This document shows positions 3,027 through 41,192 of a DNA stretch of 50,077 nucleotides, piece by piece. Position numbers and translations under genes: made by a program. This DNA comes from a bacterium (GTDB lineage Bacteria > Pseudomonadota > Gammaproteobacteria > Burkholderiales > Burkholderiaceae_C): NCBI GenBank assembly GCA_030824555.1, contig JAVBXK010000129.1:1-50077 (forward strand), written 5' to 3'. Below the pieces are notes generated by a model, which ran no database searches, had not been told where the DNA came from, and saw only the letters and a list, made by a program, of their open reading frames with translations. Every line of letters begins with the position of its first letter. Within the stretch, counting starts at the first letter, position 1.

Positions 3027-3908
3027 GTGCGCATTCCGTTTACCAAAATGCAAGGGGCCGGCAACGACTTTGTCGTGCTCGATGAAACACGGCAGTCCTT
3101 CGGGCTCACCGCTGCCCAATACCGGTTTCTGGCTGACCGGCATTTTGGTGTCGGTGCCGATCAGATCCTCACCGTGCGCCCGTCGCCTGGACCGGGCATC
3201 GATTTCGAATACGTCATCCACAACGCCGACGGTGGCGAGGTCGAGCACTGCGGCAACGGCGCCAGGTGCTTCGTGCGCTTCGTGCGCGAGCAGGGGCTGA
3301 CCACACAAGATGCCGTGCGGGTGAAGGTCAAGCACGGCGTCATCGAACTGCGCATGAACCCAGATGGCCGGGTCACCGTCAACATGGGGCCGCCCGTGTT
3401 CGACCCTGCACGCGTGCCATTCGTGCTACCAGCGCTGCCGCCACTTGTACAAAATGATTGGCAAAAATGGCCTCTGGCGCTTGATGCAGATGCGTTGATT
3501 GCTCCTGTTTTAGTGGGCGTGGTGTCCATGGGCAACCCGCATGCCGTGCAGCTGGTTGACGATGTCGATACCGCCCCTGTTGCCACAGTTGGCCCGTTGG
3601 TGGAAAACCATGTGGCGTTTCCCAATCGCGTGAATGCCGGGTTCATGCAGGTCGTGTCGCGCAACCATGTGCGCTTGCGCGTGTACGAACGCGGCGCAGG
3701 CGAAACGCTGGCGTGCGGCACGGGCGCGTGCGCTGCCGTCGTGGCTGGCGTGCGCTGGGGCCTGCTGGATGCCCCGGTCGACGTGGACACGCACGGTGGC
3801 CGCCTGACCATCAGCTGGGAGCAGACCGCAGACCTGAGAGCCCCTGTCTACATGACCGGGCCCGCCACCACCGTGTTCACGGGCACCATCGACCTGCCTG
3901 CCCTCTGA
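3027..3908 (+). CDS. dapF: diaminopimelate epimerase
   Basis: 293 residues. Converts LL- to meso-diaminopimelate for lysine and peptidoglycan synthesis. The two catalytic cysteines are seen: C75 in EHCGNGARC and C230 in LACGTGAC; the N-terminal [11 protein letters not shown] block is canonical. The start is GTG, six bases behind the cyclase stop. Residues about 140-162 are encoded by an AT-rich dispersed element (see repeat at 3448-3512), in a region between the two domains where family members vary in length. The DUF484-xerC neighbours behind it are the usual arrangement in many proteobacteria. Confidence 0.96.
3448..3512 (+). repeat. AT-rich GCTT-N18-GCT element, copy 1, inside dapF
   Basis: A low-GC island within a high-GC gene. 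The core is GCTT at 3479-3482, 18 bases, then GCT at 3501-3503. It is preceded by AAAATGGCCTCT, like the A-rich lead of the other copies, and by TTGTACAAAA, also found at copy 2. It is read in frame and adds about 22 codons of dapF. Similarity to the other copies was found by eye. Confidence 0.6.
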
Positions 3909-3975
3909 CACTTCGCCAGGGGCTACAGTTGGGGTTGTTTCAGTCTGTCCGCCTGTACCGTCACATTTGCCTGCC

Positions 3976-4677
3976 ATGAGCACTTCTTTCATCGACACCC
4001 AGCCCATTTCTCCCATCACCGAGGAAGACATCGCCAACTACCTGGTGCAGACGCCTGATTTTTTCGAGCGCCACGCCGAGGTACTGGCGTCGGTGCAGCT
4101 GAGCAGCCCGCACGGTGGCCGGGCGGTCAGCTTGCAGGAACGCCAGGCCGAACTGCTGCGCGACAAGATCCGTGGCCTGGAGCGCAAAGCCAGCGACATG
4201 ATCCGCTACGGCCACGAAAACATGGGCATCGGCGACAAGCTGCAGGGCTGGACATTCGGTCTGCTGAAAGCAGCCGACCCGGGCGACCTGCCCACCGTGA
4301 TTGCCCGTGACCTGGCGCTGTGTTTCGGCGTGCCCCAAACGGCACTGCGTCTGTGGGATGTGGCACCCACCTGGGCGTCGGCACCCTACGCCCAGGGTTG
4401 CAGCGACGATGTGAAGGCGTTTGCCACGTCGCTGGTGCAACCGTATTGCGGCAGCAACCCCGGCCTGGAAGCTGTGAGCTGGCTCGACGAACCCGCAGAA
4501 GCCAAGTCGCTTGCCTTGATTGCGTTGCGTGAGGAGCCGGGTGCGCCGTCGTTCGGCATGCTGGTGCTGGCCTCGCCCGATGTGCGCCGCTTCCAGGCTG
4601 ACATGGGCACTGACTTTTTGGAGCGCATTGGCGAGCTGGCCAGTGCTGCGCTGTCGCGGCTGCGCCCACGCGCCTGA
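3976..4677 (+). CDS. DUF484 family protein
   Basis: 233 residues from the ATG at 3976; a TTG three codons earlier is possible but lacks support. The DUF484 opening, TEEDIANYLVQTPDFFERH, is followed by a short helical stretch and a GAF-like domain. Function is not established; the gene sits between dapF and xerC in many gammaproteobacteria and betaproteobacteria, which is the arrangement here. It is probably co-transcribed with both. No catalytic residues are recognisable. Confidence 0.88.
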   Translation: MSTSFIDTQPISPITEEDIANYLVQTPDFFERHAEVLASVQLSSPHGGRAVSLQERQAELLRDKIRGLERKASDMIRYGHENMGIGDKLQGWTFGLLKAADPGDLPTVIARDLALCFGVPQTALRLWDVAPTWASAPYAQGCSDDVKAFATSLVQPYCGSNPGLEAVSWLDEPAEAKSLALIALREEPGAPSFGMLVLASPDVRRFQADMGTDFLERIGELASAALSRLRPRA

Positions 4678-4712
4678 CAGACTGCCAGTCCACCCGCCTG
4701 TCCGTCCAGCAC

Positions 4713-5762
4713 ATGGCTGAGCCAGCGCTTTCACCAGCCGATGCCGAGCTGGTTCGGCGCTACCTGCAGCACGTGCAGGTTGAAAAGCGGTTGGCGGCTC
4801 GCACGCTGGCGCTCTACACCATTGACCTGAACAAACTCGCTGCGGCGGCTGTCACTGCGCGCGTGGCGCTGACAGCGGTGCAGACCCACCACGTTCGCCG
4901 CTGGGTGGCCCAGATGCACGCCGGTGGCCGCAGTGGGCGGGGCATTGCCCTCATCCTCTCCGGTTGGCGGGGGTTTTATGTGTGGTTGGGGCGCATGGGG
5001 CTCATGGCGCACAACCCCGTGCAGGACGTGCGTGCGCCCAAAGCGCCCAAGCCCCTGCCCAAGGCGCTGGGCGTGGACGAGGCCATGCAACTCGTCACCG
5101 CGCCAGCCAGGGTTGGAGGTGACCACGGTACGACCCCAGAGGACGGTGTGAACGGGCCGATCGATGCCGTTCAAGCCGCGCGCGACCAGTGCATGGTTGA
5201 GCTGTTGTACGGTTCTGGCCTGCGCCTGGGTGAGTTGCTCGGGCTGGACGTGAACGGTGCCCCCCCAGCAGTGGGCTGGGTGGATGCCGATGCCGCCGAG
5301 GTGCATGTGCTGGGCAAGGGGTCGAAACGGCGCACGGTGCCGGTGGGTGGCCCCGCGTTGCAGGCGCTGGCCACTTGGATGGCGGTGCGTGACCAATGGC
5401 TGCCTGTCGGCGGCAGACCCGGCGGGCAAATCGATGGGGCCGGTGCCCTGGCCGATGGGCTGCGCGCGCTGTTCATCAACCGCCGTGGCAAACGCCTGTC
5501 GCCGCAGCAGACCCGTCTGGCGCTGCGGCAGCGTTCGTTGCAGGCGGGGCTGGCCACGCCGGTGCACCCGCACATGCTGCGCCACTCGTTTGCCAGCCAT
5601 GTGCTGCAGTCCAGTGGCGACCTTCGCGCCGTGCAAGAGTTGCTGGGCCATGCCCACATTGCCACCACGCAGGTGTACACGCGGCTGGACTTTCAGCACC
5701 TGGCCAAGGCCTATGACGCAGCCCACCCGCGGGCGGGTCGCAAAGGCACGCCGCCGAAATGA
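4713..5762 (+). CDS. xerC: site-specific tyrosine recombinase XerC
   Basis: 349 residues. With XerD it resolves chromosome dimers at dif. The SAM-like core-binding domain covers about 1-110 and the catalytic domain the rest. Catalytic residues are R171 (GSGLRLGELL), K202 (GKGSKRR), H287 and R290 (HPHMLRH), H313 (LGHAHI) and nucleophile Y322 (TQVYTRLD). It is longer than the usual about 300 residues owing to a Gly-rich insertion at 133-155 and an extra loop at 232-247. Chromosomal context (dapF-DUF484-xerC) argues against a phage or integron integrase. Confidence 0.95.
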   Translation: MAEPALSPADAELVRRYLQHVQVEKRLAARTLALYTIDLNKLAAAAVTARVALTAVQTHHVRRWVAQMHAGGRSGRGIALILSGWRGFYVWLGRMGLMAHNPVQDVRAPKAPKPLPKALGVDEAMQLVTAPARVGGDHGTTPEDGVNGPIDAVQAARDQCMVELLYGSGLRLGELLGLDVNGAPPAVGWVDADAAEVHVLGKGSKRRTVPVGGPALQALATWMAVRDQWLPVGGRPGGQIDGAGALADGLRALFINRRGKRLSPQQTRLALRQRSLQAGLATPVHPHMLRHSFASHVLQSSGDLRAVQELLGHAHIATTQVYTRLDFQHLAKAYDAAHPRAGRKGTPPK

Positions 5763-5844
5763 CCTGAACCCCGTGGGTTGGTGTGGCGCGATCCGTTGGC
5801 ACAAGACGATCGCACACATACAGCCATGCGGGTTGATTTCTGTA

Positions 5845-5867
5845 AAGATTCATTTTAAATGATGCTT
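5845..5867 (+). promoter_or_regulatory. NsrR-type operator
   Basis: An 11-1-11 palindrome in an AT-rich promoter: left arm AAGATTCATTT, spacer T, right arm AAATGATGCTT. Against the NsrR half-site pattern AAGATGYATTT I count 10 of 11 matches on the left and 8 of 11 on the right. Its position upstream of nnrS and an nsrR-like gene makes NsrR control, with release by nitric oxide, the likely role. Confidence 0.55.
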
Positions 5868-5888
5868 ATAACGGTGTTTGTTGTAAAA

Positions 5889-5911
5889 TAGATATATTAA
5901 ATTTACATCTT
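5889..5911 (+). promoter_or_regulatory. second, weaker NsrR-like site
   Basis: Left arm TAGATATATTA, spacer A, right arm ATTTACATCTT, giving about 8 and 9 of 11 matches to the NsrR half-site pattern. It ends nine bases before the ATG of the next gene, where bound repressor would block the promoter or early elongation. Weaker than the first site and in very AT-rich DNA, so it could be chance. Confidence 0.35.
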
Positions 5912-5920
5912 TAAACTGCC

Positions 5921-6190
5921 ATGAACCAACTGATTCAACTCGACCTGACCGCATCCAACGTTGCCACTGACCGCGATGCTGCCGTGCTGGCCGCGTTTGC
6001 GCAACTGCCCGTGGGCGACAGCCTGGCATGGACGCAGGCCCATGACCCGCTCCCGTTGCACGAGGCGCTGATGGCACAGTGGGGGGGACAGTTTGCCTGG
6101 ACCCGGCAAGAACAGGACGGTGGGAACTGGGCGCTGCACCTGACGCGCAAGCCCGCTGGCAAAAGCTGCTGTGGCTGCTGCGGCGGCTGA
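5921..6190 (+). CDS. small DUF2249-like protein with Cys-rich tail
   Basis: 89 residues. The middle (DSLAWTQAHDPLPLHEAL) resembles DUF2249 proteins, which often accompany nitric-oxide and denitrification genes. The end, KSCCGCCGG, contains four cysteines and could bind a metal or iron-sulfur cluster; that is inference. It is first in a run with nnrS and the NsrR-like gene and lies directly behind two NsrR-like operators, so a role in nitrosative stress is likely. Not a recognised enzyme. Confidence 0.7.
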   Translation: MNQLIQLDLTASNVATDRDAAVLAAFAQLPVGDSLAWTQAHDPLPLHEALMAQWGGQFAWTRQEQDGGNWALHLTRKPAGKSCCGCCGG

Positions 6191-6221
6191 TCCCCCATAG
6201 CTGTACCGGCAAGCAAACGCC

Positions 6222-7418
6222 ATGGCCTCCGTCATCATCCCTTTAAAAGAACCCACTCGTCGTGCGCCCCCCGGCCGCATGGCGCTGTGGGATCTGGGTT
6301 TTCGCCCCTTCTACCTGCTGGCGGCGTTGTTCGCTGCCTTGTCGGTGCCCTTGTGGGCGCTGCAGTTCTCTGGGTTGACCTCACATGCCTGGCTGCGTGG
6401 TGCGGTTTGGCACGCCCATGAAATGGTGTTTGGCTACACGCTGGCGGTGGTCATCGGCTTTTTGTTCACGGCGGGGCGCAACTGGTCGGGTCAGCCCACA
6501 CCCAAAGGCCTGTGGCTCGCGGCACTGGCCGCGCTCTGGGTGGCTGCCCGCATCCTGGTGCTCACACCCTGGGGTGTTGCGGCTGCGGTCGTGAACGTGG
6601 CTGTGCCCTGGTTGGCTGCGTGGGGGCTGTGGCGGGCGCTGTACCAAGGCCGCAACAGCCGCAACTACTTTTTCGTGGCGCTGCTGGTGGCGATGGGTGC
6701 CGCCGCTGGCGTCGTTCATCTGACGCAGTCGATGGGGGTGCCGTTTCCCGGTGGGCTGGGCATTCCGGTGGCGTTGGATGTGGTCTTGTTCATGGTGAGT
6801 GTGATGGGCGGGCGCGTGATCCCCATGTTCTCCAACAACGGGGTGCCAGGCATGAATGCCGTGCGCCACCCGACCGTCGAAAAAGCGGCCCTGGGCAGTG
6901 TGCTGGCGCTGATCGTGGCCGACGCACTGGGGCTGCATGGTGTGGCGCTGGCTGTGTTGCTGTTGGCGGCCACAGGGGCACACGCCGCCCGCTTGTGGCT
7001 GTGGCAACCGCTCAAATCGCGCGCCAACCCGTTGGTGTGGGTGTTGCACGTGGCTTACCTGTGGGTGCCATTGCACTTGTTGCTGCGTGCGGCCGCCGAG
7101 CTGAGCTGGGTTGCACCCGGCCCGGCCACGCACGCGGTGACCGTGGGTGTGATTGGCACGATGACGCTGGGCATGATCACCCGCACCGCGCTGGGGCACA
7201 CAGGCCGGGCGCTGCACGCGTCACGCATGGAAACGGCTGCCTATGTGGCCGTGACTGCATCAGCCGTGGTGCGTGTGTGCTTGCCACTGGTGGCCCCTGC
7301 CAGCCTGATGGTGGCTGTGCACGTGTCTGCCACGCTGTGGACGCTGGCTTTCGTGCTGTACCTGGTGCGCTACGTCCCGTTCCTGATTTACGCTCGGGTG
7401 GATGGTCAACCGGGCTGA
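6222..7418 (+). CDS. nnrS: NnrS family heme-copper membrane protein
   Basis: 398 residues, strongly hydrophobic with about 12 predicted membrane segments. The opening LWDLGFRPFYLLAALFA and the WHAHEMVFGY histidine motif are typical of NnrS, an inner-membrane protein that protects against nitric oxide in denitrifiers and related bacteria. It follows the small Cys-tailed gene by 31 bases and precedes the NsrR-like regulator by 52, so all three probably form one nitric-oxide-inducible operon. Confidence 0.9.
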   Translation: MASVIIPLKEPTRRAPPGRMALWDLGFRPFYLLAALFAALSVPLWALQFSGLTSHAWLRGAVWHAHEMVFGYTLAVVIGFLFTAGRNWSGQPTPKGLWLAALAALWVAARILVLTPWGVAAAVVNVAVPWLAAWGLWRALYQGRNSRNYFFVALLVAMGAAAGVVHLTQSMGVPFPGGLGIPVALDVVLFMVSVMGGRVIPMFSNNGVPGMNAVRHPTVEKAALGSVLALIVADALGLHGVALAVLLLAATGAHAARLWLWQPLKSRANPLVWVLHVAYLWVPLHLLLRAAAELSWVAPGPATHAVTVGVIGTMTLGMITRTALGHTGRALHASRMETAAYVAVTASAVVRVCLPLVAPASLMVAVHVSATLWTLAFVLYLVRYVPFLIYARVDGQPG

Positions 7419-7470
7419 ACGCCTTGGATGGGTTGACCGCACCACACCACCCTGGCATTTTGGAGCCCCG

Positions 7471-7929
7471 ATGCGTCTGACCACCATGACCGACTATGCG
7501 CTGCGACTGCTGGTGTACATCGGCCAGAACCGTGACCGGCTGTGCACGATAGCGGAGGTGGCCAGGGTCCACGGCATCTCCGAGGCGCACCTGATGAAGA
7601 TCACCCACCAGCTCGGGCTGGGTGGGTGGATTGAAACCGTCCGTGGCAAGGGCGGTGGCATGCGCCTGGCGCGGGAGCCTGACCAGATCAACCTGGGTGA
7701 ACTCGTTCGCCGCGTGGAGCCTGACTTCGCGCTGGTCGAATGCCTGGGTGTCGCTGACCTGTGTTCGCTGTCTGGCAACTGCCGGTTGACCGAGGTGTTC
7801 AACGGTGCGTTGGCTGCGTTCATGGCGCGGCTCGATGCGGTGACGCTGGCAGACGTGTTGCCGTCGCCCAAACCGGCACAGTTCGTTCAGTCAGTCGATA
7901 TCAAGACCATCCGCGTGCATCCGCTGTAA
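7471..7929 (+). CDS. nsrR: Rrf2-family NO-sensing repressor NsrR
   Basis: 152 residues from the ATG at 7471. Winged helix at about 1-65 with the DNA-contact sequence VRGKGGGMRLA, typical of NsrR. Three cysteines, C91, C98 and C104, are positioned to hold an iron-sulfur cluster; Asp8 (TDYALR), the fourth ligand reported for one NsrR, is also present. Nitric oxide destroys DNA binding in this family. The adjacent nnrS and the palindromes at 5845-5911 suggest it represses its own operon. IscR is unlikely because the cysteine spacing and neighbours differ. Confidence 0.88.
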   Translation: MRLTTMTDYALRLLVYIGQNRDRLCTIAEVARVHGISEAHLMKITHQLGLGGWIETVRGKGGGMRLAREPDQINLGELVRRVEPDFALVECLGVADLCSLSGNCRLTEVFNGALAAFMARLDAVTLADVLPSPKPAQFVQSVDIKTIRVHPL

Positions 7930-7995
7930 CGGGCGCGGCATGCAAAACCGAATGGCGTCATGCACAAAGATGCCAATGGCCACACACGCCCAGGT

Positions 7996-8430
7996 TCAGT
8001 CGCGTGTGGCCTGGCGGCGCAATTCGTCCAAGTAGGCCTGCCCGTCAGGCGGGCGGCCCGAGCGCTGGCTTTCCCACACCATGCGACCCAGGCAGTCCAT
8101 GGCCACATGGTGGGCATCGTGCAATGAGTCTCGGCGGGCGGCCAGCAACTCGACGGCCTGGCGCACACCGGCGGGTTGGTCGATAGAGCATTGCTCGCTG
8201 ATGCTCAAGTGCATGGACAGGTGCAGGAACGGGTTGGTTTTGCTGGCATCAGGCTGATGCATGTGGCGCAACGCAGCGTCCACGTCTGACAGTTCGGCGT
8301 GGAACTCGGGGTGCTCGTCTATCCACTGGCCACTCAGCACCTCGATCGCTTCCATGGCTTCGCCGGACCGCTGCTTGCGGTACACGTCACAAAAAAACCG
8401 GCGAACATCTTCCTGGCTGGGGTTGAACAT
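7996..8430 (-). CDS. DUF1841 family protein
   Basis: 144 residues. MFNPSQEDVRRFFCDVYRK at the start and the His-rich central stretch NPFLHLSMHLSISEQ match DUF1841, a small family of proteobacterial proteins without known function. The conserved histidines and acidic residues could bind metal, but this is speculation. The ATG at 8430 was chosen over an in-frame codon 14 residues upstream because family members begin with this sequence. It follows the TRIC-like gene on the same strand by 48 bases. Confidence 0.8.
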   Translation of the reverse strand: MFNPSQEDVRRFFCDVYRKQRSGEAMEAIEVLSGQWIDEHPEFHAELSDVDAALRHMHQPDASKTNPFLHLSMHLSISEQCSIDQPAGVRQAVELLAARRDSLHDAHHVAMDCLGRMVWESQRSGRPPDGQAYLDELRRQATRD

Positions 8431-8478
8431 GGTGAAGTCTGGGGTCAAGGAAACAGGGAGCGCAGCATACACGGGCCG

Positions 8479-9117
8479 TCAGCTGCGCCAGGGCGGCAAC
8501 GTCCAGTTGCGCCACACGGCCAACCCGCGCAAGCCCACGGTCACACCCGCGCAGGCCGTCAGGGCCAGCCAGCCGGGGCTGTGTGCCTGCCACAAGCCCA
8601 GGTACACCCAGCCTCCGGCGAACGCACACACGGTGTAGGGCTGGTGGTCGCGCAGCACAGCCGGGATTTCGTTGCACACCATGTCGCGCAGCACGCCGCC
8701 GACCACGCTAGTCACCACGCCCATCAGCACCGCCACCAGCCCGGGCATGTCGGCCGCCAGCGCCTGGTGCACGCCGCTGGCGGTGAACAGACCCAGGCCC
8801 AGCGCGTCGGGCCAGAAGATGGCTTTTTCGGTCAGGTCGAAATGGCGCTGCCGCAGCACCAGCATGGCCAGCAAGGCCAATGCGAACACGCCCCACAGCA
8901 GTTCGACATGGCGCACCCAGAAAAACGGGCGTTGGTCCAGCAGCAGATCGCGCACCGTGCCGCCACCGAATGCGCACAAAAACGCCACCGCACACACGCC
9001 CACGGCATCGAGCCGCTTGCGTGCAGCTTCCATCAGCCCAGACAGCGCGAACGCAGCCGTGGCGGCAATTTCAACCAGGATGCGCAGGGCTTCACCCCAA
9101 TTCGATACGGCGTTCAT
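8479..9117 (-). CDS. TRIC/UPF0126 family membrane protein
   Basis: 212 residues with about seven hydrophobic segments arranged as two similar halves. The paired motifs FGGGTVRD and VGGVLRD are the hallmark of UPF0126 (YadS/YicG), related to trimeric intracellular cation channels; some members transport glycine or other small substrates. Substrate here is unknown. Same strand as the DUF1841 gene downstream, probably co-transcribed. Confidence 0.88.
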   Translation of the reverse strand: MNAVSNWGEALRILVEIAATAAFALSGLMEAARKRLDAVGVCAVAFLCAFGGGTVRDLLLDQRPFFWVRHVELLWGVFALALLAMLVLRQRHFDLTEKAIFWPDALGLGLFTASGVHQALAADMPGLVAVLMGVVTSVVGGVLRDMVCNEIPAVLRDHQPYTVCAFAGGWVYLGLWQAHSPGWLALTACAGVTVGLRGLAVWRNWTLPPWRS

Positions 9118-9249
9118 GGCGCGAGATTGTCGCTGTGTTCAGGCCGTGTGCAGGTGCGGCGCTGGTGCGTTGCCAGGCTTCACTATCATCGAGAGGTTGG
9201 GCCGCTGTGCCCCCGTTTCACCATCTGGTTTCGTTTCAGGAGGTCTGTC

Positions 9250-9867: not shown

Positions 9868-9892
9868 CCACCCAGCAGGATGGGGACAGCGG

Positions 9893-9909
9893 CGAAAAAC
9901 TTTCAGTCT
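9893..9909 (+). repeat. 17-nt CGAAAGAC repeat, copy 1
   Basis: CGAAAAACTTTCAGTCT differs at two positions from the consensus CGAAAGACTYTCRGCCT shared with sites at 15727, 31222 and 41984. It lies 26 bases behind the ParA-like stop. Confidence 0.4.
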
Positions 9910-9974
9910 CTCAGGGGAAACCTGATGCCAGGCTGTCCCGTGCATGACGCGTCAGGTGGTTACCCGAGGTGACG

Positions 9975-10442: not shown

Positions 10443-10474
10443 TTGGCGCGTTGCCCGGACGTGCCCGGAGAGCG

Positions 10475-10954: not shown

Positions 10955-11006
10955 GGTGGTGGTGTGCGTGCAAGGTAGGGCCGGGCGGGATTCGGCCGGA
11001 CCGGGA

Positions 11007-11930: not shown

Positions 11931-12858
11931 CCCACACGTGTCCACTTCCCCAACCGAAACCCCGGTGCCTTCGATGGACGGCGCTGCCGTCGAACGGTGG
12001 GCCCGTTTGTCTGCCGCGCCGAGTCCGTGGCTGCACGATGAAGTGGGCGCCCGCATGGCGCAGCGGCTGCACTGGATCAAGACCGCTCCGTCAAGCTGGC
12101 TGGACTGGTCGCCGTTGCGCGGTGGTGCCGCCGCCGGGCAGGCGGTGGCCAGTTTGTACAAAAATTCAAAGCTTTTTTTGCCTTCATCGCTTTTTTATAA
12201 AGAGATGTCAGCTATAAAAAAAGTAAATTCTGCACGGCATGGTCTTTGGGCCCGGCTCACCGGTCAGGGCCCCACGCAGGCAGACTCGGACACGCAGGTG
12301 GGCATGGTGTGGGCCAACATGTGCCTGCACGACACACACCTGCCCCGCACCGTGATGCAGCAATGGCACAGGCACCTGGACGTGGACGGTTTCCTGATGT
12401 TTTCGTGCCTGGGCCCGGACACGCTGACCGAACTCCGTGCCGTCTACGCGCGCCTGGGCTGGCCTGCGCCGTGCCATGCGTTCACCGACATGCATGACTG
12501 GGGGGACATGTTGGTCGAAAGCGGGTTCGATGCGCCAGTGATGGACGTGGAGCGCATCGTGCTCAGCTACGCCTCGGGCGATCGGTTGTTGCAGGACTTG
12601 CGCCAGTTCGGGCGCAACCTGAGCGCCGAGCGCTCGCGTGTCACGCGCGGCAGGCGTTGGCGCCGCGAGTTGATCCAGGCGCTGGAAAGTGGTTTGCCCC
12701 GCACGCCAGATGGCCAGATGACTTTGACGTTTGAAGTGATCTACGGCCACGCCTACAAGCCCTTGCCGAAGGTGAAGGTTGCCGCCAGCAGTGCGGTGTC
12801 GCTGGCCGACATGAAGCAGATGCTGGGGGCGGGCAATCCGCCCAGCAACCGCCGCTGA
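11926..12858 (+). CDS. BioC-like SAM methyltransferase with AT-rich in-frame insert
   Basis: 310 residues. The C-terminal half (VWANMCLHD, HLDVDGFLMFSCLGPDTL, FTDMHDWGDMLVESGF, LTFEVIYGHAYKP) is that of BioC-like malonyl-ACP methyltransferases, which start biotin synthesis. The SAM-binding N-terminal half is poor: the glycine loop is LRGGAAAGQAV, and residues about 79-102 come from an AT-rich dispersed element in place of the strand that normally ends with the acidic ribose-binding residue. Activity is therefore uncertain. Start ATG 11926 lies inside another repeat and lacks a ribosome site; ATG 11974 is an alternative. No other bio genes are near. Confidence 0.7.
   Translation: MSPHVSTSPTETPVPSMDGAAVERWARLSAAPSPWLHDEVGARMAQRLHWIKTAPSSWLDWSPLRGGAAAGQAVASLYKNSKLFLPSSLFYKEMSAIKKVNSARHGLWARLTGQGPTQADSDTQVGMVWANMCLHDTHLPRTVMQQWHRHLDVDGFLMFSCLGPDTLTELRAVYARLGWPAPCHAFTDMHDWGDMLVESGFDAPVMDVERIVLSYASGDRLLQDLRQFGRNLSAERSRVTRGRRWRRELIQALESGLPRTPDGQMTLTFEVIYGHAYKPLPKVKVAASSAVSLADMKQMLGAGNPPSNRR
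12160..12232 (+). repeat. AT-rich GCTT-N18-GCT element, copy 2, inside methyltransferase
   Basis: A strikingly AT-rich block in a high-GC gene. GCTT at 12189-12192, 18 bases, GCTAT at 12211-12215. Like copy 1 it is introduced by TTTGTACAAAA. It has no stop codon in the gene's frame. Confidence 0.6.
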
Positions 12859-33073: not shown

Positions 33074-33140
33074 CTTCACCCGCACGCCACCACGGCCCAC
33101 ATCGTTAGGCCGACACGCCCCCACTGACAGAAGGTTGCCC

Positions 33141-34193
33141 ATGACCCAACTCATCACACCGGAACTGCAAAAGTGGATCGTTGACCAGGTGACCGCCGGA
33201 CATGGCCCCGATTCGGTGCTGCAGGCCATGAGAACGGCTGGCTGGCAGGCCGAGGTGGCGCTGCGTGCACTGGAGCACACCCTGGCCTCGCACCTGAGCG
33301 CGCACGGTGTGGACGTGGCGGCGGTACTGGGGCCTGACCACACCCACCCAGCACAGGCCGCTCAACCCGTGGGCACCCCTGCCGTTGAAGGCCAAGCCGC
33401 ATCAGCGCGCGCGTCAGCCCCGGCAACCGTTGCCACGGCAGGTGCTGCAACGGTGGTGGTGGCCCCCGTGCAAAACCAGTTTGACCCGGCCAGCCAGGTG
33501 CCACCCATGCTGACCCGTCTGGCTGCACGCACCTTCAAGGCCATGCCCGAGCCCGATTTGGCACAGTCGCCCCGGCAGATCGACGTGGGCGACCGCACCG
33601 TTGACGTGCTGCTGACCCTGTCGCGGCCCAGGGTGGTGGTGTTTGGCAATTTCCTGAGCGAAGACGAATGCACTGCGCTGATCGATGCCGCTCGCCCGCG
33701 CATGGCGCGCTCACTGACCGTTGAAAACGCCACCGGCGGCGAAGCGGTCAACGCCGACCGCACCAGCAACGGCATGTTCTTCAGGCGGGCCGAAAGCGAG
33801 CTGGTGGCCCGCATCGAAACCCGCATTGCCCGGCTGCTGCACTGGCCGCTTGAAAACGGCGAAGGCGTTCAGGTGCTGAATTACCAGCCCGGCGCCGAAT
33901 ACAAGCCACACTACGACTACTTTGACCCCCTGGCACCCGGCACCCCTTCCATACTCAAACGTGGTGGTCAGCGGGTGGGCACGCTGGTGATGTACCTGAA
34001 CAACCCCGAGTGCGGTGGCGGCACCACTTTCCCCGACGTGGGGCTGGAAGTGTCGCCCCAGCGTGGCCATGCCGTGTTTTTTGCCTACGACCGCCCGCAC
34101 CCCAGCAGCCAGACGCTGCACGGAGGTGGCCCCGTCATCAGCGGCGAAAAATGGGTGGCCACCAAGTGGCTGCGCGAACGGGAGTTTGTGTGA
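33141..34193 (+). CDS. 2OG-Fe(II) oxygenase (prolyl 4-hydroxylase-like) with helical N-terminus
   Basis: 350 residues. The C-terminal double-stranded beta-helix (about 165-350) has metal ligands His and Asp in KPHYDYFD, distal His in QTLHGGG and the 2OG-binding Lys in EKWVATKW. The N-terminal 55 residues form a short three-helix, UBA-like segment (ELQKWIVDQVTAGHGPDSVL), joined by an Ala/Val-rich linker (65-110). Substrate unknown; bacterial relatives hydroxylate proline in proteins such as EF-Tu. ATG 33141 is used. Confidence 0.87.
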   Translation: MTQLITPELQKWIVDQVTAGHGPDSVLQAMRTAGWQAEVALRALEHTLASHLSAHGVDVAAVLGPDHTHPAQAAQPVGTPAVEGQAASARASAPATVATAGAATVVVAPVQNQFDPASQVPPMLTRLAARTFKAMPEPDLAQSPRQIDVGDRTVDVLLTLSRPRVVVFGNFLSEDECTALIDAARPRMARSLTVENATGGEAVNADRTSNGMFFRRAESELVARIETRIARLLHWPLENGEGVQVLNYQPGAEYKPHYDYFDPLAPGTPSILKRGGQRVGTLVMYLNNPECGGGTTFPDVGLEVSPQRGHAVFFAYDRPHPSSQTLHGGGPVISGEKWVATKWLREREFV

Positions 34194-34205
34194 CAAACTT
34201 GATGT

Positions 34206-34262
34206 AAAAAAACAGACTCTATCGCTTTCCTGATAAGCATTGTTTGCTATCAATGTTGTTCT
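34206..34262 (+). repeat. AT-rich GCTT-N18-GCT element, copy 3, intergenic
   Basis: GCTT 34224-34227, 18 bases, GCTAT 34246-34250, introduced by AAAAAAACAGACTCTATC. It starts 13 bases after the oxygenase stop. Confidence 0.6.
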
Positions 34263-34308
34263 TTGATGAAAAATGCCTTCATGGCATACAAAACGGTACC
34301 TCTTCGCT

Positions 34309-35202
34309 ATGAAAATCAATTCAAACGGTTTGAGCTTCGAGGTGCTGGTTGACGAACCTGCTCAGGCGCCGCCTGTGGGCACCGTGCTGCTGACCATGGG
34401 GCTGGGCATGCAGCTGGTGGCCTGGCCCGATGCGTTCATCCAGGCGCTGTTGCAGGCGGGCTACCGCGTGGTGCGTTACGACAACCGCGACATCGGCCTG
34501 TCGTCTCACCTTGACGTGCTGGGCAAACCCAGCATGCCGTGGCAACTGGTCAAGCACAAGCTGGGTTTCAACATGGCCCACCCTTACACGCTGCAAGACA
34601 TGGCCGACGACGCGCTGGGCCTGCTCGATGCGCTGGGTGTGGACAAGGTGCATTTGGTTGGTGTCAGCATGGGCGGCATGATTTCGCAGCGCCTGGCAGC
34701 CACCGCGCCGCAACGCGTGCTCAGCCTGACCAGCATCATGAGCAGCAGCGGTGCACCGGGCCTGCCCGGCCCGGCCCCCGAAGTGGCCCGCGCCATGATG
34801 CACGCACCCGCCAGCACCGACCCCACCGATGTCGTGGCCAGCACGCTCAACCTGTTCCAGCTGATTGGCAGCCCGGGCTTCCGTGACGACGCCGCCCACC
34901 TGCGCGATCGCCTGATGGCCGGGGTGACGCGCAGTTACCACCCCGAGGGCGTGCTGCGCCAGACGCTGGCTGTCATGTCCGACACGGAACGCCACACCCT
35001 GCTGCCCCGCATCACCTGCCCCACGCTGGTCATTCACGGCACAGCCGACCCGCTGGTGCCGCTGGCCTGTGGGCAGGACACGGCGCAGCGCATACCCGGC
35101 GCGCGTTTCCATGCAATTGAAGGCATGGGCCACGACTGGCCCCCCGCCGTGTTGCCCATCTGGCTGGGGCTGCTGCTGCCGCACCTGGCCGCAGCCCGTT
35201 GA
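34309..35202 (+). CDS. alpha/beta hydrolase
   Basis: 297 residues. Nucleophile Ser in GVSMGGMIS, oxyanion region LTMGLGMQL, catalytic Asp in HGTADPLVP and His in GMGHDWPP complete the triad. Similar to TAP-like or 3-oxoadipate-enol-lactonase-like hydrolases; the substrate is unknown. ATG 34309 is used; the open frame has 12 more codons upstream that lie next to the AT-rich repeat. Confidence 0.88.
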   Translation: MKINSNGLSFEVLVDEPAQAPPVGTVLLTMGLGMQLVAWPDAFIQALLQAGYRVVRYDNRDIGLSSHLDVLGKPSMPWQLVKHKLGFNMAHPYTLQDMADDALGLLDALGVDKVHLVGVSMGGMISQRLAATAPQRVLSLTSIMSSSGAPGLPGPAPEVARAMMHAPASTDPTDVVASTLNLFQLIGSPGFRDDAAHLRDRLMAGVTRSYHPEGVLRQTLAVMSDTERHTLLPRITCPTLVIHGTADPLVPLACGQDTAQRIPGARFHAIEGMGHDWPPAVLPIWLGLLLPHLAAAR

Positions 35203-35281
35203 CCGAGAGCGCCCCCAACCCTGGCTTCGCCAGGCCCCCCGAGGGGGTGTAACCATTCTTGGGGCGGCCCAGCGAATGGTT
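35203..35281 (-). repeat. GC-rich dispersed repeat with hairpin tail
   Basis: GAGAGCGCCCCCAACCC...GCCCCCCGAGGGGG is the reverse complement of the block at 42038-42084 with few differences. It continues into a strong hairpin, AACCATTC...GAATGGTT, with an inner TGGG/CCCA pair. It directly follows the hydrolase stop and may act as a terminator. Confidence 0.55.
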
Positions 35282-35334
35282 TGAGCTGCGAGCCTTTCGT
35301 TCAACCCACCGGCATTCCTTCGAGGAAAATCACT

Positions 35335-35396
35335 TATCAGTAGCTGACTATTCAATACAGATAAGCGACATAGCCATATTTGGCTTTTAATTTCAA
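35335..35396 (-). repeat. AT-rich GCTT-N18-GCT element, copy 4, ahead of queF
   Basis: On the minus strand GCTT (35366-35363), 18 bases, GCTAC (35344-35340). It fills the space in front of queF, so queF's promoter and ribosome site must lie within or beside it. Confidence 0.6.
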
Positions 35397-35397
35397 G

Positions 35398-36252
35398 ATG
35401 ACCACTCCCCAACCCGACCAATCCCAGCTGGGCAAACCCACTGCCTACATCGACCAGTACGACCCCACGCTGCTGTTCCCACTGCCGCGCGCGCCCAAGC
35501 GGGCCGAAGTGGGCATCACGGGCACGCTGCCGTTTCTGGGTGCCGATCTGTGGATGGCGTTCGAGGTGAGCTGGCTCAACCGCAAGGGCAAGCCCCAGGT
35601 GGCGCTGGCGCAGATCACGGTGCCAGCCGAGTCGCCCCACATCATCGAAAGCAAGAGCTTCAAGCTTTACCTGAACAGCCTGAACAACACGCCGTTTGAC
35701 GATGCCGAAGCCGTGCGCGCCACCTTGCGCGCCGACCTGACCGAGGCCGCCTGGCGCGGCGCATCGGCGGTGGGCTCCAGCGTGGGGGTGAAACTGCTGG
35801 CCCCCGAGCTGTTCGACCGCGAACCCATTCACGAGCTGGACGGCCTCAACCTCGACCGCCTTGACATCGAATGCACGCGCTACACACCCGCGCCCGATCT
35901 GCTGTCAGCCGCCGTCGGCGAACAGCCCGTGACGGAAACCTTCACCAGCCACCTGCTGAAAAGCAACTGCCTGGTCACTGGTCAGCCCGACTGGGGCAGC
36001 GTGCAAATCAACTACAGCGGCCCGCAGATTGACCAGGGCGGGCTGCTGCAATACATCGTGAGTTTTCGCAACCACAACGAATTCCACGAGCAATGCGTGG
36101 AGCGCATGTTCATGGACATCTGGACGCGCTGCAAACCCACCAAACTGACGGTGTACGCCCGCTACACCCGACGCGGTGGGCTGGACATCAGCCCCTGGCG
36201 CACCAGCCACCCGCAGGCCCTGCCGCCCCACATCCGTACCGCGCGGCAGTGA
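35398..36252 (+). CDS. queF: NADPH-dependent 7-cyano-7-deazaguanine reductase
   Basis: 284 residues, the long bimodular QueF. It reduces preQ0 to preQ1 in queuosine synthesis. The nucleophilic Cys is in [15 protein letters not shown], with the adjacent Asp; the [11 protein letters not shown] motif binds substrate and NADPH. No other queuosine genes are in the window, and no preQ1 riboswitch was recognised in front of it. Its upstream region is occupied by repeat copy 4. Confidence 0.95.
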
Positions 36253-36379
36253 GCTGGGTGGAAAAAATGGCCATGGCATGCAGTCATCTGACGAGCGTCA
36301 ACGTCAGTTGAAGTTAAAAACCGTAATCTCACAGGGTGGCTGCCAACCATTGTGGCGAGCCGTTTGATTGGGAGTACTC

Positions 36380-37972
36380 ATGGCGTTTTCAGATCTCAAA
36401 ATCCGTACCCGCATCCTGGCGGGGTTTTCGGTGCTCATCCTGGGCAGTGTGTTCATGGCCTTGTATGCGTCGGCGCAGTTCGGCGCCACCAGCCGCACGC
36501 TGACGGACATCGTCGAGTCGCACATCGACAAAATTTCGCTGACCAAGGGCCTGCAGGACAACGTGAACCTGGTGGCCCGCGGGGTGCGCAACATCGCGCT
36601 GCTGACCGACCCGGAAAAACAGCAGTGGGAAAAGCAGCGCATCGACAAGGCCAGCGCCGCCAACACCGAGTTGTTCAACAAACTCGCTGCAACTCAAAAT
36701 GAGCCAGCAGAACAAGCTGCATTGGATGCGGCCAAAGCGGCCCGGGCGTTGTACCTGCCGCTCATTCACAAGGCAATTGAATTGGGCACCACGGGTGAAT
36801 ACACGGCAGCCGTGGTGTTGATGATGGGTGACCTGCGCAAGGTCCAGAACGATTACCTGGACAAGCTCCAGAAGTACGTTGACCTTGAAATCAACCTGGC
36901 CAAAGAACAGGCGATCAGGGAGCAAAAAGACGCGAAAACAACCAGTTGGGTGTTGATGGCGGCGGCACTGGTCAGTGCGGTGGTGGGGCTGATGGTCGGT
37001 GTGTACGTCAGCCGCTCGGTCACGCAACCCATCGGTGAGGCTGTCATGGTGGCCCAGGCGGTTGCGAAGGGGGACTTGACCGTGCATGTGCGGGCGCACA
37101 GTCAAGACGAAGCGGGCCAGCTGTTGCAGGCGCTGCACGACATGAACCAGAACCTGCAGCGCATGGTGGGCAAGGTGCGCATGTCCAGCGATTCGATCGT
37201 GACCGGTGCCACCCAGGTGGCCGCAGGCAGCATGGACCTGTCGCAACGTACCGAGGCCCAGGCGGCCAACCTGGAGCAAACGGCCGCGTCGCTGGAAGAA
37301 CTCACGTCCACGGTCACACAAACGTCGGACACCTCACGTCAGGCCAACCAGTTGGCGCACCAGGCGTCTCAGGCCGCCATGCGTGGTGGCGAGGTGGTGG
37401 GCAAAGTGGTGCAAACCATGAGCGACATCACGCATTCCAGCCACAAGATGTCTGAAATCATCGGCGTGATCGACGGCATTGCTTTCCAGACCAACATCCT
37501 GGCGCTCAATGCGGCGGTCGAGGCGGCGCGTGCGGGCGAGGCTGGGCGAGGTTTTGCCGTGGTGGCGGGCGAGGTGCGCAGTCTGGCGCAGCGCAGTGCC
37601 GAAGCCGCGCGCGAAATCAAAGCGTTGATTCAAGGCAGCATCGGCAACGTCGAAGCGGGCAGTGAACTGGTGGCCCAGGCCGGGCAGTCAATGGAGGACA
37701 TCGTCAGCCAGGTGAGCCGCGTGACCGATCTGATCAACGAAATGAGCAGCGCCACCCAGGAGCAAACGGGTGGCATCCAGCAGATCAACACGGCGGTGTC
37801 TCAAATGGACCAGATGACCCAGCAGAACGCTGCGCTGGTGGAAGAGTCGTCTGCGGCGGCGGCCAGCCTGCAAAGTCAGGCTACCGAGCTGACACAGGCC
37901 GTGTCCGTGTTCAAAACGGACGATGGCGCAGGGGCATCAGCTTCACCGCGCCTGGGTTTGGCGGCAAGCTGA
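36380..37972 (+). CDS. methyl-accepting chemotaxis protein
   Basis: 530 residues. Membrane helix about 10-32, periplasmic four-helix-bundle sensor about 33-190, second helix about 195-215, HAMP ([20 protein letters not shown]) and a long cytoplasmic coiled coil with the tip [20 protein letters not shown]. The C-terminus ([20 protein letters not shown]) lacks the NWETF tether for CheR/CheB. GGAG precedes ATG 36380 by five bases. Ligand unknown. It shares its last 30 bases with the convergent hydrolase gene. Confidence 0.95.
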
Positions 37973-39142
37973 ACCGTTGAAGCCCTGCAGCACGTTCACG
38001 GCATTCACGCCCACTTCAGCCACGGCGTAACCGCCTTCGAACGTGAACACGGTGGGCAGGCCCAGGCTGGCCAGGGCTGCACCCATGGTCAGGAAATCGT
38101 CGCTTTGCAGCTTGAAGCCTGAAATGGGGTCGCCCGCAAAGGTGTCCAGTCCCAGTGGCACCACCAGGGCTTGCGCGTCAAAGCCGCGCACGCGGGCCAG
38201 CGCGGTGTCAAGTGTGGCCAGCCAGGCGGTGCTGCCTGTGCCCCTGGGCAGCGGCAGGTTCAGGTTGAAGCCTGTGCCTGCACCCGCACCGGTTTCGTCG
38301 GTGTGCCCCAGGAAAAAGGGGTATTCGGTGGTGGGGTCGCCGTGGATGGACACGGTCAGCACGTCTGCGCGCTCATAGAAGATGGTTTGGGTGCCGTTGC
38401 CGTGGTGGTAGTCCACGTCCAGCACGGCAACGCGTGCGCAGCCGCCATCACGCAGCGCCTGTGCGGCCACGGCGGCGTTGTTCAGGAAGCAATAGCCACC
38501 CATGAAGTCGGGTCCGGCATGGTGGCCTGGCGGGCGAGTGAGGGCCAGCGCTGATGGCAGAGGCGTGGTGGCGCGCACCGTTGCGGTGGTCGCGGCGGCC
38601 GTGCCCTCGGTCAGGTGCGGCAGGCTTGTGTCGGTGCTTTCAGCCATGTTTGCCAGCACGGCTTGTGCAGCAGCCAGTGCGCAGGCTGCACCGGCACGTG
38701 CGGCCACCCAGCTGCCTGCCGTCAACGGTGTGCCCGAATCGAATGCGTACATGCCCAACCGTGCTGCAAAGTTGCGGGGCGGGTGGGTGGTGGCAAAACC
38801 GTGGCGGTTGGGCAAAGGCCAGACGGATGGCAAGGCGTCGCGCTGCGCGTTGGCCGGGTCCATGGCCACCCACTCGTCCCACGCACCGGCCAGAAAACGC
38901 AGGTAGGCAGGGCTGTGCAAGCGTGCAAGCGTGGCGTCCAGGCTGGCTTCGAATGCGGCTGTGCCCAAGGCTGGCGTGGCCAGCGGGCCGACGGGGCGGC
39001 GCGCCAGCTCGGCCAGCACATGGTCCAGCCGTGCGGGCACCTCGTGGCAGGGCACCATCTGCCCCCTGAACATTTCCTGTTGGCCCGCGTGTTGTGCGTG
39101 CAAGGGGTTGTGAAAAACGTGCATGTTCATGTGCGCCGACAT
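37943..39142 (-). CDS. histone deacetylase-family amidohydrolase
   Basis: 399 residues. Arginase/deacetylase fold with [16 protein letters not shown], zinc ligands in [12 protein letters not shown] and in [11 protein letters not shown], and a final FEGGYAV. Bacterial members deacetylate acetylpolyamines or similar small amides. An Ala/Thr-rich insert at about 168-198 is atypical. The coding 3' end overlaps the chemoreceptor by 30 bases. Confidence 0.92.
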
Positions 39143-39145
39143 ATC

Positions 39146-39219
39146 AGCCTCCGCCGAGCCGCCTCAAGGAGGCTGAAGCCCCCTTGGGGGGCAGCGAACG
39201 ATGTGAGCGTGGGGGTTGT
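39146..39219. repeat. GC-rich dispersed repeat, hairpins
   Basis: Two hairpins in tandem: AGCCTCC/GGAGGCT (39146-39152, 39168-39174) and GCCCCCTTGGGGGGC (39178-39192), followed by AGCGAACGATGTGAGCGTGGGGG. It shares the C-run/G-run core with the repeats at 35203 and 41999 and sits between two genes of the same strand. Confidence 0.5.
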
Positions 39220-39225
39220 TTCATT

Positions 39226-40074
39226 TCAGCCCAGTTCTTTGAACGATTGCAGCGGCGACAGCGGCGTGAAGCTGCCCGCCCGTTTGGCCTGCATGGCCGC
39301 AATGGACTCGCGCACATGCACGTTGCTCCAGATGGCGCCTTGCAGCCAGCCCATCTGGCGCAGGCTGTCTTCCACACTGTGGTCGCGGGCGTACTGGACG
39401 GCCTGTTTGGTGCCCCAGATGGCAATGGGGGGCTTGGCGGCAATCTCTTTGGCGCATTGCAGCGCGGCGGCCAACATGGCCTCCGGGGTGTCAAACACCT
39501 CGTTCACCAGGCCATGGGCCAGCGCCTTGGCGGCGGGCAGGCGGCGGCCGGTGTAGGCCAGCTCTTTCACCACGGCAATCGGTATCAGCTTGGGCAGGCG
39601 CTGCAAGGTGCCCACGTCGGCCACCATGCCGATGTTGATTTCCTGGATGCAGAAGAACGCGTCTGCCGTGGCGTAGCGGATGCAGGCGGCCGTGACCATG
39701 TCCACCGCCCCGCCGATGCACCCGCCCTGGATGGCGCAGATGACGGGGATGCGCAGCGCCTCCAGCTTGGTGAACGTGGCCTGCATGTCGGTCAGCAGGT
39801 CGAATATGGCTGCGCGGCCTTCGGGGCTTTGGTCGTCCATCTGGATGGCGCCTGCAAAGGTTTCCAGCGCCATGCCCGCGCTGAAGTGCTTGCCCGTGCT
39901 GGAGATGACCAGCGCCCGGGCCGTGCCGCTGCGGTGCAGGGTGGTCAGCACCTCGTCCAGCTCGCGCCAGAAGGTGGGGTGCATGGTGTTCATGGCCTCG
40001 GGGCGGTTGAGCACCAGGTGGGCGATGTGGTCGGCTTCGGTCAGTGTGAAGCAAGTCAGTGGGTGGGTGGTCAT
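39226..40074 (-). CDS. enoyl-CoA hydratase/isomerase, dienoyl-CoA isomerase-like
   Basis: 282 residues of the crotonase fold. Oxyanion-hole segments KHFSAGMALETF and GGCIGGAVDMVTA are present. The stretch CIQEINIGMVADVGTLQRLP matches delta3,5-delta2,4-dienoyl-CoA isomerase (ECH1), including its Glu and Asp catalytic pair, so isomerisation of odd-position double bonds in fatty-acid breakdown is the best guess. RDHSVEDSL near the end also follows ECH1. ATG 40074 is used. Confidence 0.88.
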   Translation of the reverse strand: MTTHPLTCFTLTEADHIAHLVLNRPEAMNTMHPTFWRELDEVLTTLHRSGTARALVISSTGKHFSAGMALETFAGAIQMDDQSPEGRAAIFDLLTDMQATFTKLEALRIPVICAIQGGCIGGAVDMVTAACIRYATADAFFCIQEINIGMVADVGTLQRLPKLIPIAVVKELAYTGRRLPAAKALAHGLVNEVFDTPEAMLAAALQCAKEIAAKPPIAIWGTKQAVQYARDHSVEDSLRQMGWLQGAIWSNVHVRESIAAMQAKRAGSFTPLSPLQSFKELG

Positions 40075-40119
40075 GCGTGTCTGTGGATGGAGCAAAGGAA
40101 CGGCAAAGGGAGACCAGGT

Positions 40120-40491
40120 TCAGCGGGAGCAGCCCTTGCCGTTGGACGGCCGAAAATCACTTTCGATGGCATCGGTCTCGTCCGTGTAAGCGCCTTGAGA
40201 TGTTTTGCCGTAATGCTTGGTGCCAAAACAGTGGTAACGCTTGGTTCGGCTGTTGGCCCAGACCAGATCGCGACTGCCGCCCGGTGCGGGGGCCTTGTTG
40301 GCAAAGTAGTCGGGTTTGTTTTTGGGTTCAGTGCTTTTTGTCGCTGTGGCTGTGACTGTGACTGCGGGTGCGGGTGCTGCTTGCTCGGGTGGCTTGGTGG
40401 GGGCCGCTGCGGCTGTTGATGCCGGGCTTTGGGCATGTGCCCCGCTGGCAACCAGACAGACAGCCAAAGCGATTCGTGACAAATGTTTCAT
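40120..40491 (-). CDS. small exported protein with YHC...GKT C-terminal module
   Basis: 123 residues. A signal peptide (MKHLSRIALAVCLVASGAHA) is followed by an Ala/Pro/Thr-rich linker and a C-terminal domain WANSRTKRYHCFGTKHYGKT ending in a GKGC motif. This module recalls the short YHC-GT-YYGKTK-G-YM-E segment found at the end of some exported nucleases and in Ada-like zinc modules. It is probably periplasmic; function unknown. On the same strand behind it lies the dienoyl isomerase, 45 bases away. Confidence 0.7.
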   Translation of the reverse strand: MKHLSRIALAVCLVASGAHAQSPASTAAAAPTKPPEQAAPAPAVTVTATATKSTEPKNKPDYFANKAPAPGGSRDLVWANSRTKRYHCFGTKHYGKTSQGAYTDETDAIESDFRPSNGKGCSR

Positions 40492-40662
40492 TGAAGGTGT
40501 CTCTCCGTGGTTTTTTTGCAGAAGTTGACCAGTATGGCGTTGGCAAAACCGGGCGGCAACTGAAAGCGGGTGCGTCTGCGACAGTGTGTGGTTTGGCGGC
40601 ATCTGCTGGTGGTGGTGCGGGCAGGCAACAATGGCGGTTTTCACACACCCTTTCAGGCCACC

Positions 40663-41106
40663 ATGCCCCGCATCCAGTTCACCCTTCCCGACCGGTTCAG
40701 TTTCGTCACCGACATGCAGATCTACATCAGCCACGTCAACCAGGGCGGGCACCTCGACAACGCCCAGCTGCTCACGCTGGTGTCGGAAGCGCGCGTGCGG
40801 TTCTTCAAATCATTGGGCTACACCGAGGGCAACGTGGCTGGGCACCCCATTGTGGTGGGCGACATCGTGGCGCAGTACAAGTCGGAAGGCTTCCACGGCG
40901 AAACCATGCGCGTCAGCATGGTGCCGCAGGACTTCAACCTGTACGGCTTCGACCTGGTGTTTCAAATGGCGTGCCCCGACAAGGGGCGCGAGGTGGCGCG
41001 GGGCAAGATCGGCATCGTGTTCATCGACATGGCGACCCGCAAGGTGTCACCCGTGCCCCCCGCGTTTCTGGAAAAAACGGCGGCGCTGACCGGATCAAAC
41101 GGTTGA
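40663..41106 (+). CDS. hot-dog acyl-CoA thioesterase
   Basis: 147 residues. ISHVNQGGHLDNAQLLTLVSEARVRFF is the 4-hydroxybenzoyl-CoA thioesterase-type helix segment, though the usual catalytic Asp of xDxxGHxNN is Asn here (HVNQGGHLDN), which could alter mechanism. Likely cleaves an acyl-CoA; substrate unknown. It is divergent from the small exported gene. ATG 40663 was selected over an open frame extending 31 codons upstream. Confidence 0.83.
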   Translation: MPRIQFTLPDRFSFVTDMQIYISHVNQGGHLDNAQLLTLVSEARVRFFKSLGYTEGNVAGHPIVVGDIVAQYKSEGFHGETMRVSMVPQDFNLYGFDLVFQMACPDKGREVARGKIGIVFIDMATRKVSPVPPAFLEKTAALTGSNG

Positions 41107-41127
41107 GTTGCCCGTCTGTGTATTGAA

Positions 41128-41192
41128 TCAGTTGTAGCAAACTTTCTATGCTGCAAAAGCAGTAGGCACTGATTTTATATATATTTTACAGA
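41128..41192 (-). repeat. AT-rich GCTT-N18-GCT element, copy 5, intergenic
   Basis: On the minus strand GCTT (41160-41157), 18 bases, GCTAC (41138-41134), with an A/T run TATATATAAAATC ahead. It lies between the convergent ends of the thioesterase and the GntR gene. Confidence 0.6.

Follow-up and report, generated by a model that had tools for sequence, protein, structure and literature searches.

A dispersed 70-bp palindromic element of Comamonadaceae, with a published core, that may be maintained as a DNA recognition site

The subject of this work is an AT-rich imperfect palindrome of about 70 bp, five copies of which lie in a 50,077-nt stretch of bacterial DNA (positions 1 to 50,077 of contig JAVBXK010000129.1, assembly GCA_030824555.1, GTDB Burkholderiaceae_C), called here the window. 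The five copies belong to a genuine dispersed family, beyond chance. Many copies of this family hold their place between species and some between genera; one of them, inside the diaminopimelate epimerase gene dapF, leaves a nucleotide signature that persists against codon bias in nine genomes; and two genomes of one genus differ in consensus at shared positions. The model we propose, quite possibly correct and held tentatively, is that of a palindrome resembling the repetitive extragenic palindromes (REPs), maintained as a sequence-specific DNA site for a putative trans-acting factor. The sequence is non-coding and occurs in abundance in environmental bacteria of several genera.

The family was sought in the genome to which the window belongs (the home genome, 5.16 Mb in 139 contigs) with a Comamonadaceae consensus as the pattern. 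When 3 mismatches at most were allowed, it matched 33 times and its reversed form 0 times. An ungapped 76-column alignment of 26 of these matches, none of them in the window, was turned into an Infernal sequence model and a position weight matrix (PWM). The matrix finds exactly five copies at 8 bits or more in the window (62, 35, 31, 21 and 17 bits) and 0 elements once the window is reversed; its best score over 100 dinucleotide shuffles is -5.6 bits. The same five rank first with Infernal (38, 23.7, 12.3, 11.0 and 10.6 bits), the lowest three being weak when taken singly (E 0.007-0.02). The copies, with two parts of copy 3, are the following:

3446-3521, plus strand: copy 1, in dapF (about 3027-3908; Pfam DAP_epimerase); PWM 21 bits
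12156-12231, plus strand: copy 2, top scorer of the window and a variant with a T-run, separating a minus-strand gene with a Pribosyltran domain from a plus-strand open reading frame starting at 12304; PWM 62 bits, Infernal 38 bits
34191-34266, plus strand: copy 3, starting at the stop codon of a 2OG-Fe(II) oxygenase-like gene (33141-34193); PWM 35 bits
34194-34213 (approximate), plus strand: 5' AT-rich part of copy 3 with its A-tract, from the sequence and the family alignment
34223-34250, plus strand: CGCTT-N17-TGCTAT, the core of copy 3, where the bases best conserved in the family stand at their fixed spacing
35324-35399, minus strand: copy 4, with the gene of an alpha/beta hydrolase (34309-35202) on one side and a queF-like gene (35398-36252) on the other, as seen with Pfam; PWM 31 bits
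41118-41193, minus strand: copy 5, in the convergent gap between a 4HBT_2 thioesterase-like gene (40609-41106) and the gene of a GntR-type regulator (41231-41980), as seen with Pfam; PWM 17 bits

The preliminary description of this DNA had reported five instances of a GCTT-N18-GCT core, all of which are present at the coordinates and on the strands it gave, and had proposed that they form one dispersed family. The profile searches support this proposal, the profile of outside copies recovering the five where 100 shuffles yield none. The core does comprise the most invariant bases of the family but is not diagnostic: the window holds 21 matches to it where 6.9 are expected, 16 of the 21 fail to score as elements, and a seven-base pattern therefore cannot define the family. 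Where three copies had been placed between genes and two inside them, our gene calls, which are home-made and crude and underlie all the intergenic and in-gene counts given below, place four between genes and one, copy 1, inside a gene. The word TTGTACAAAA, said to precede copies 1 and 2, is indeed present in both; it is missing from the orthologous dapF segments and is thus taken as a coincidence.

In the home genome, 207 instances of the exact core CGCTT-N17-AGCTAT are found and 0 of the reversed control. Of 150 genomes of the taxonomic family, 24 contain this core 10 times or more, with a maximum of 471, and the reversed control stays at 6 or below in every genome. The density is roughly one element per 10 kb and, over these 150 genomes, the element is patchy over genera. 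With the model (E up to 1e-4; at most 150 candidates were scored per genome, so that counts near 150 are lower bounds), matches were obtained among 29 genomes in 13 of the 17 belonging to the window's family and in 0 of the 12 that represent other families of the same order. The named loci, at least 120 among the matches listed, were fetched with the exact pattern, and the 120 used here cover 930 kb; they come from Acidovorax, Simplicispira, Comamonas, Diaphorobacter, Giesbergeria, Paenacidovorax, Extensimonas or Rhodoferax, or from metagenome-assembled genomes named only to family, order or class, in agreement with the link to Comamonadaceae suggested earlier. The named loci hold 204 copies, 120 of the seed pattern and 84 others. 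One copy used as a query matched 2 of 72,556 plasmid records and none of 50,697 phage records.

According to the family alignment, the element has AT-rich borders and consists, in order, of an AT block, an A-tract (an A-run or, in a minority, a T-run), a GCCTCT-like word, AGCGCTT, a variable centre, an AAGCGCT-like arm, AGCAGCTAT and an AT block. Per column, CGCTT is conserved in 131-135 and GCTA in 119-135 of the 135 home copies outside the model, and the arm opposite CGCTT in only 95-122. The half-sites GCTT and GCTA stand 22 bp apart, about two helical turns. CGCTT-N17-AGCTA is found 259 times and every other spacing from 5 to 44 between 0 and 7 times, many or most of the loci having been fetched with fixed-spacing patterns; when the 120 seed copies are subtracted from the 175 occurrences in 120 named loci, about 55 remain at spacing 17, against 25 over all the other spacings summed. 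A copy one base shorter appears to be present behind the transposase gene of the home genome, and a small secondary count of CGCTT-Nk-AGCTA appears at k=32 (7) over the named loci L098-L217, the home stretches L238-L337 and the window (L and G numbers being our labels for loci and genomes). Within all-A/T runs at columns 18-22, TpA occurs in 6 of 129 home copies, where 72 are expected, and in 10 of 59 copies of the named loci, where 24 are expected; this avoidance of TpA in the A-tract suggests that DNA shape matters. In L138 (871-946), the arms form a perfect 16-base inverted repeat, ATAGCTGCTAGCGCTT / AAGCGCTAGCAGCTAT, and this copy is perhaps near the ancestral form.

The core of the element was already published in 2017. 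Table 7 of PMC5217627 gives the motif pair GCTTAT(N)5AAGCG for Acidovorax ebreus TPSY, with 114 copies of which 107 are intergenic and 44 convergent, generally <50 bp from genes, and this motif is by its sequence the core of the present element; ATAGCT(N)22CAAAAG, given in the same table for Polaromonas naphthalenivorans CJ2, may be a genus variant of it. In the sections of that article that we consulted, the motifs are statistical ones whose function is left open, and what is added here is the full element, its positions across genera, the dapF signature and the dialects. A literature search with fragments of the element sequence found no paper, nor was a further description of the element found among titles and abstract openings.

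Since constraint can be gauged from synonymous sites, the copy inside dapF offers a calibrated test. The nucleotide signature is also present in dapF of other genera. Upon synonymous recoding, with the codon usage of the window applied to all five dapF sequences considered, 0 of 3000 recoded versions reached the observed element score in each of the five. In nine signature-bearing dapF genes, the G+C content at third codon positions is 0.21-0.39 within the element, compared with 0.71-0.91 for the remainder of the gene, and at the same place in seven other dapF genes it is 0.58-1.00; codon identity at equal residues amounts to 0.73 in the element versus 0.56 elsewhere for the nine genomes and to 0.37 versus 0.52 for the seven, these groups having been drawn after the scores were known, with G009 in neither and G005 in the low group despite 33 model matches. 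The peptide around WPLAL is more widely kept, and the nucleotide signature extends beyond the peptide constraint. The link between the signature and the abundance of the element is not perfect, as G008 has a strong dapF copy and yet 2 exact cores (38 model matches).

Conservation of position was followed for the non-seed copies of the named loci. Among 60 orthologous comparisons, which derive from 26 of the 84 copies and count reciprocal pairs twice, the element is present in 58, the place is empty in 1 (L195 versus L214) and 1 is not colinear. The home genome and three Acidovorax-type loci have one copy in common, with flanks at ~78%. In seven non-seed groups, orthologues differ in 14/243 comparisons at invariant columns and 67/729 in columns conserved in at least 70% of the home copies, against 173/675 in poorly conserved columns and 215/810 in the right flanks (the left-flank value, 358/810, is inflated by shifts and was not used), it being understood that the compared copies had to pass a score limit that favours conserved columns. 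Further colinear places score as empty at 72-84% flank identity, including L080 versus the window. For L002 versus L115, the relative falls short by 54 nt, and the site may be truly empty. Where L195 and L214 score as empty versus the home locus L012, the gap is of similar length and probably contains a degenerate copy.

In the window itself, the gap of copies 3 and 4 contains an element-like sequence in 7 of 9 relatives (G001, G003, G004, G006, G009, G010 and G016; 21-66 bits) and no element in G005 and G008. For the gap of copy 2, a weaker counterpart is seen in G003 (23 bits), and a scan of five other relatives gave nothing that reaches 12 bits. The queF-like gene has an element behind it, not in front of it, in G008 (L222 3084-3159, 32 bits) and G005 (L226 678-753, 17 bits). 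The alpha/beta hydrolase gene (34309-35202) also exists in G001 and is absent at this place from G003, G004, G006, G009, G010 and G016, where the gap contains just the element. The earlier suggestion of copies degenerate by age is not well supported, given that conserved columns change more slowly between orthologues and that nine genomes retain the signature in dapF, and the accompanying rule that a family without presence/absence polymorphism would be coincidental fails, since stable positions can reflect constraint.

The consensus itself varies. Two genomes of one genus, G033 and G163, have 471 and 18 exact cores, and at least 150 and 61 model matches, respectively. CGCTT is found in 2/23 copies of G163 and 19/28 of G033 (Fisher p 1.7e-5), [CG]CTA in 14/23 and 0/28 (Fisher p 6e-7); the G163 loci were fetched without the model, and the four G033 stretches were chosen by model matches, which favours CGCTT there. 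In a 20-kb stretch of G033 with nine copies, five are mappable by both flanks and four are not by the rule used; 4/5 mapped copies have an element-like sequence in G163 (25, 6, 32 and 35 bits) and 1/5 has none, so that a burst in G033 is unsupported. A consensus that differs at shared positions is expected if the sites follow a trans-acting specificity, and re-seeding with new copies may also have created the difference.

As for the genomic context, 185 copies of the named loci could be placed, 19 others being at locus edges; 174 are intergenic (128 between co-directional genes, 35 convergent, 11 divergent) and 11 are in genes, and 131/161 copies of the home stretches are intergenic. The intergenic space of the named loci totals 141 kb, with 18 kb of convergent and 29 kb of divergent gaps. 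For copies at most 80 nt from a stop codon, the middle of the element has a median position of 33-41.5 nt behind the stop, which means that the element abuts or includes the stop codon there. Between co-directional genes, 66 copies are in the opposite and 62 in the same orientation, and the choice of A-run or T-run is independent of the orientation to the gene. No replichore bias was found in G033 (p 0.98), and a replichore-polar motif was rejected on this ground.

The dyad hardly covaries: 1/30 pairs exceeds z 2 in the home copies (32-50, z 2.6) and 1/30 in the named loci (10-72, z 2.9), the rest being near 0 or below. The Rfam covariance models found one tRNA and no element match in the window at gathering scores, and no match in 11 element loci at E up to 1.

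The model that we propose combines these observations. The element would offer two sequence-specific half-sites, GCTT and GCTA, within an imperfect palindrome flanked by A-tracts; its origin would probably be REP-like, and the copies would now be mostly held in place rather than spreading. A putative trans-acting protein or complex would recognise the element at the DNA level, hence its retention, and a role in chromosome organisation is a first guess. We infer protein recognition at the DNA level from the near-rigid spacing of two turns, the A-tracts, the absence of an orientation preference, the weak covariation and the dapF signature; the selection that would go with it is likewise presumed. 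The insertions seen beside elements are expected if insertions into elements are not tolerated. A bolder form of the model, doubtful at present, sees a dispersed, co-evolving DNA recognition system in Comamonadaceae, with hundreds of long, A-tract-flanked sites, many of them at positions fixed between genera, whose dialect would shift along with a putative chromosome-wide factor; the latter may be an architectural protein, an uptake receptor or a recombinase. Should hundreds of positions indeed be maintained by a trans-acting factor able to shift their consensus jointly, this would be an uncharacterised chromosome-wide system.

Several observations weigh against the maintenance of the palindrome as a DNA site. 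No factor tracking the family was found, the only candidate tested being the Y1 transposase. Relative to mononucleotide shuffles, which preserve base content and not dinucleotide content, the copies fold better, with a mean z of -1.95 for the 135 home copies not used in the model, -4.26 for 200 named-locus copies (120/204 matches there being seeds) and -2.74 for 83 non-seed copies of these loci. In the gap of copies 3 and 4, G010 and G016 retain the stem despite different letters on both arms, and this is the strongest single item of hairpin evidence. Some home copies are more alike than in simulation, the nearest-neighbour identity having a mean of 0.717 (simulated 0.670) and top values of 0.83-0.92 (simulated maximum 0.754). 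G009, with 67 exact cores, and G005 keep little or no dapF signature; 30/161 home copies are inside genes; and the strands are uneven among 145 copies typed from the list for G033, with 58 on the plus and 87 on the minus strand (binomial p 0.02). To these are added the two selection effects mentioned above, that of the score limit on the orthologue comparison and that of the choice of the G033 stretches. A conserved RNA-level structure, considered at the outset, gains from the better folding and from the one orthologous site that keeps its stem through changes on both arms; it is weakened as a reading by the scarce covariation over dispersed copies, by the lack of an orientation preference between co-directional genes and by the rarity of U-tract hairpins.

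An exonuclease-blocking or terminator stem-loop role has been proposed for REPs. That the present elements are bidirectional 3'-end hairpins of this kind seems unlikely to us, even though their proximity to stop codons, their folding and the 35 convergent versus 11 divergent copies among the 174 intergenic ones, in convergent gaps that are smaller in total than the divergent ones, all speak for it, as do the 44 convergent and 4 divergent copies among the 107 of the A. ebreus motif (PMC5217627, Table 7). A U-tract hairpin overlaps the element at only 16/127 element-bearing 3' ends of the named loci; over all sites, a hairpin with a U-tract is present at 24/127 of these ends versus 61/330 element-free ends, which is no difference, and the U-tract terminator was rejected on these grounds. 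Also in favour of the hairpins, canonical terminators outside the element are fewer at element-bearing ends (8/127 versus 61/330), although the element there occupies part of the searched space. The independence of the A-run or T-run from gene orientation and paired columns that hardly covary speak against them, and termination is hard to reconcile with a signature in the middle of dapF.

It is quite unlikely that the copies are functionless relics, left by a non-autonomous mobile element that spread in a burst long ago. Small, palindromic, AT-rich and dispersed patchily over genera, they look the part, copy 2 has a counterpart in just 1 of the 6 relatives whose gap was scanned, and the 54 nt lacking between L002 and L115 could be a true empty site; relics would not, however, be expected to change more slowly at conserved columns, to retain 58/60 orthologous positions or to impose a signature on dapF, and one copy used as a query matched 2/72,556 plasmid records and no phage record. 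A recombination site, by which segments of ~1-2 kb would be gained or lost between directly repeated elements through homologous or site-specific exchange, is very unlikely as the general explanation: in 4/4 picked cases (L128/L147, L138/L187, L374/L368, L372/L368) the left flank of a single element matches that of one element of a relative and its right flank that of another, directly repeated one, with about 1-2.2 kb between these two, but the cases were picked after the event because of their look, ordinary homologous recombination between repeats would suffice, most orthologous sites are without extra DNA, and the dapF signature is left unexplained. As to a motif resembling the DNA uptake sequences (DUS) or uptake signal sequences (USS), spread by biased uptake and recombination, we regard it as highly improbable. 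A-tracts are present in the Haemophilus USS, and dispersion, lineage dialects, the lack of a replichore bias and the rarity on plasmids and phages are in line with such a motif; the element is, on the other hand, far rarer than DUS/USS, much longer at about 70 bp, and mostly intergenic.

The likeness to REPs and their REP-associated tyrosine transposases (RAYTs) lies in a high-copy, mostly intergenic palindrome near 3' ends (PMC3733652), which the 207 cores and the 174/185 and 131/161 intergenic copies also describe. According to the same source, REPs are GTAG- or CGTC-tagged; on the reverse strand of the present element, the four bases beside the palindrome are mostly ATAG and also GTAG (116 and 28 of 161 home copies, together 144/161). 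The element differs by its length of about 70 bp with A-tracts, and the portion of PMC3733652 that was searched contains none of six taxon names. The domain Y1_Tnp is present in 23/29 genomes, including the four genomes of the family without model matches, and not in G002, which has 25 matches; a RAYT was rejected as the partner, the Y1 transposase being found with and without elements, and no cognate RAYT emerges. Behind several RAYT genes stands a different palindrome, but in several genomes an element-like sequence is also seen 3' of RAYT.

A single Y1 transposase gene, RAYT-like, exists in much of the family (L369-L371, L381-L393). It is followed in most of the flanks inspected by a TCTGACCCCAATTA-like sequence, and in G015 by the full GGGGTCAGACCCCAATTA palindrome.

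Comamonadaceae are also among the bacteria that carry the Betaproteobacterial repeat element (BRE), a dispersed intergenic repeat with 69% GC and about 90 bp in Bordetella (PMC3110155, as far as consulted); the present element, with its AT-rich flanks and ~70 bp, is set apart from it by composition and length only. GC-rich inverted repeats stand beside copy 4 in the window (35206-35285, RNA fold -40.4 kcal/mol), and GC-rich dispersed palindromes of ~100 bp also occur in G033 and G163, possibly BRE.

Finally, in L368 (7163-18412, G000 contig 115), seven elements lie on one strand among small genes, some of them toxin-antitoxin-like. A gene of this region is duplicated together with its element, repeated remnants of the 3' end of that gene are present, and the region shows piecewise gain and loss in relatives.

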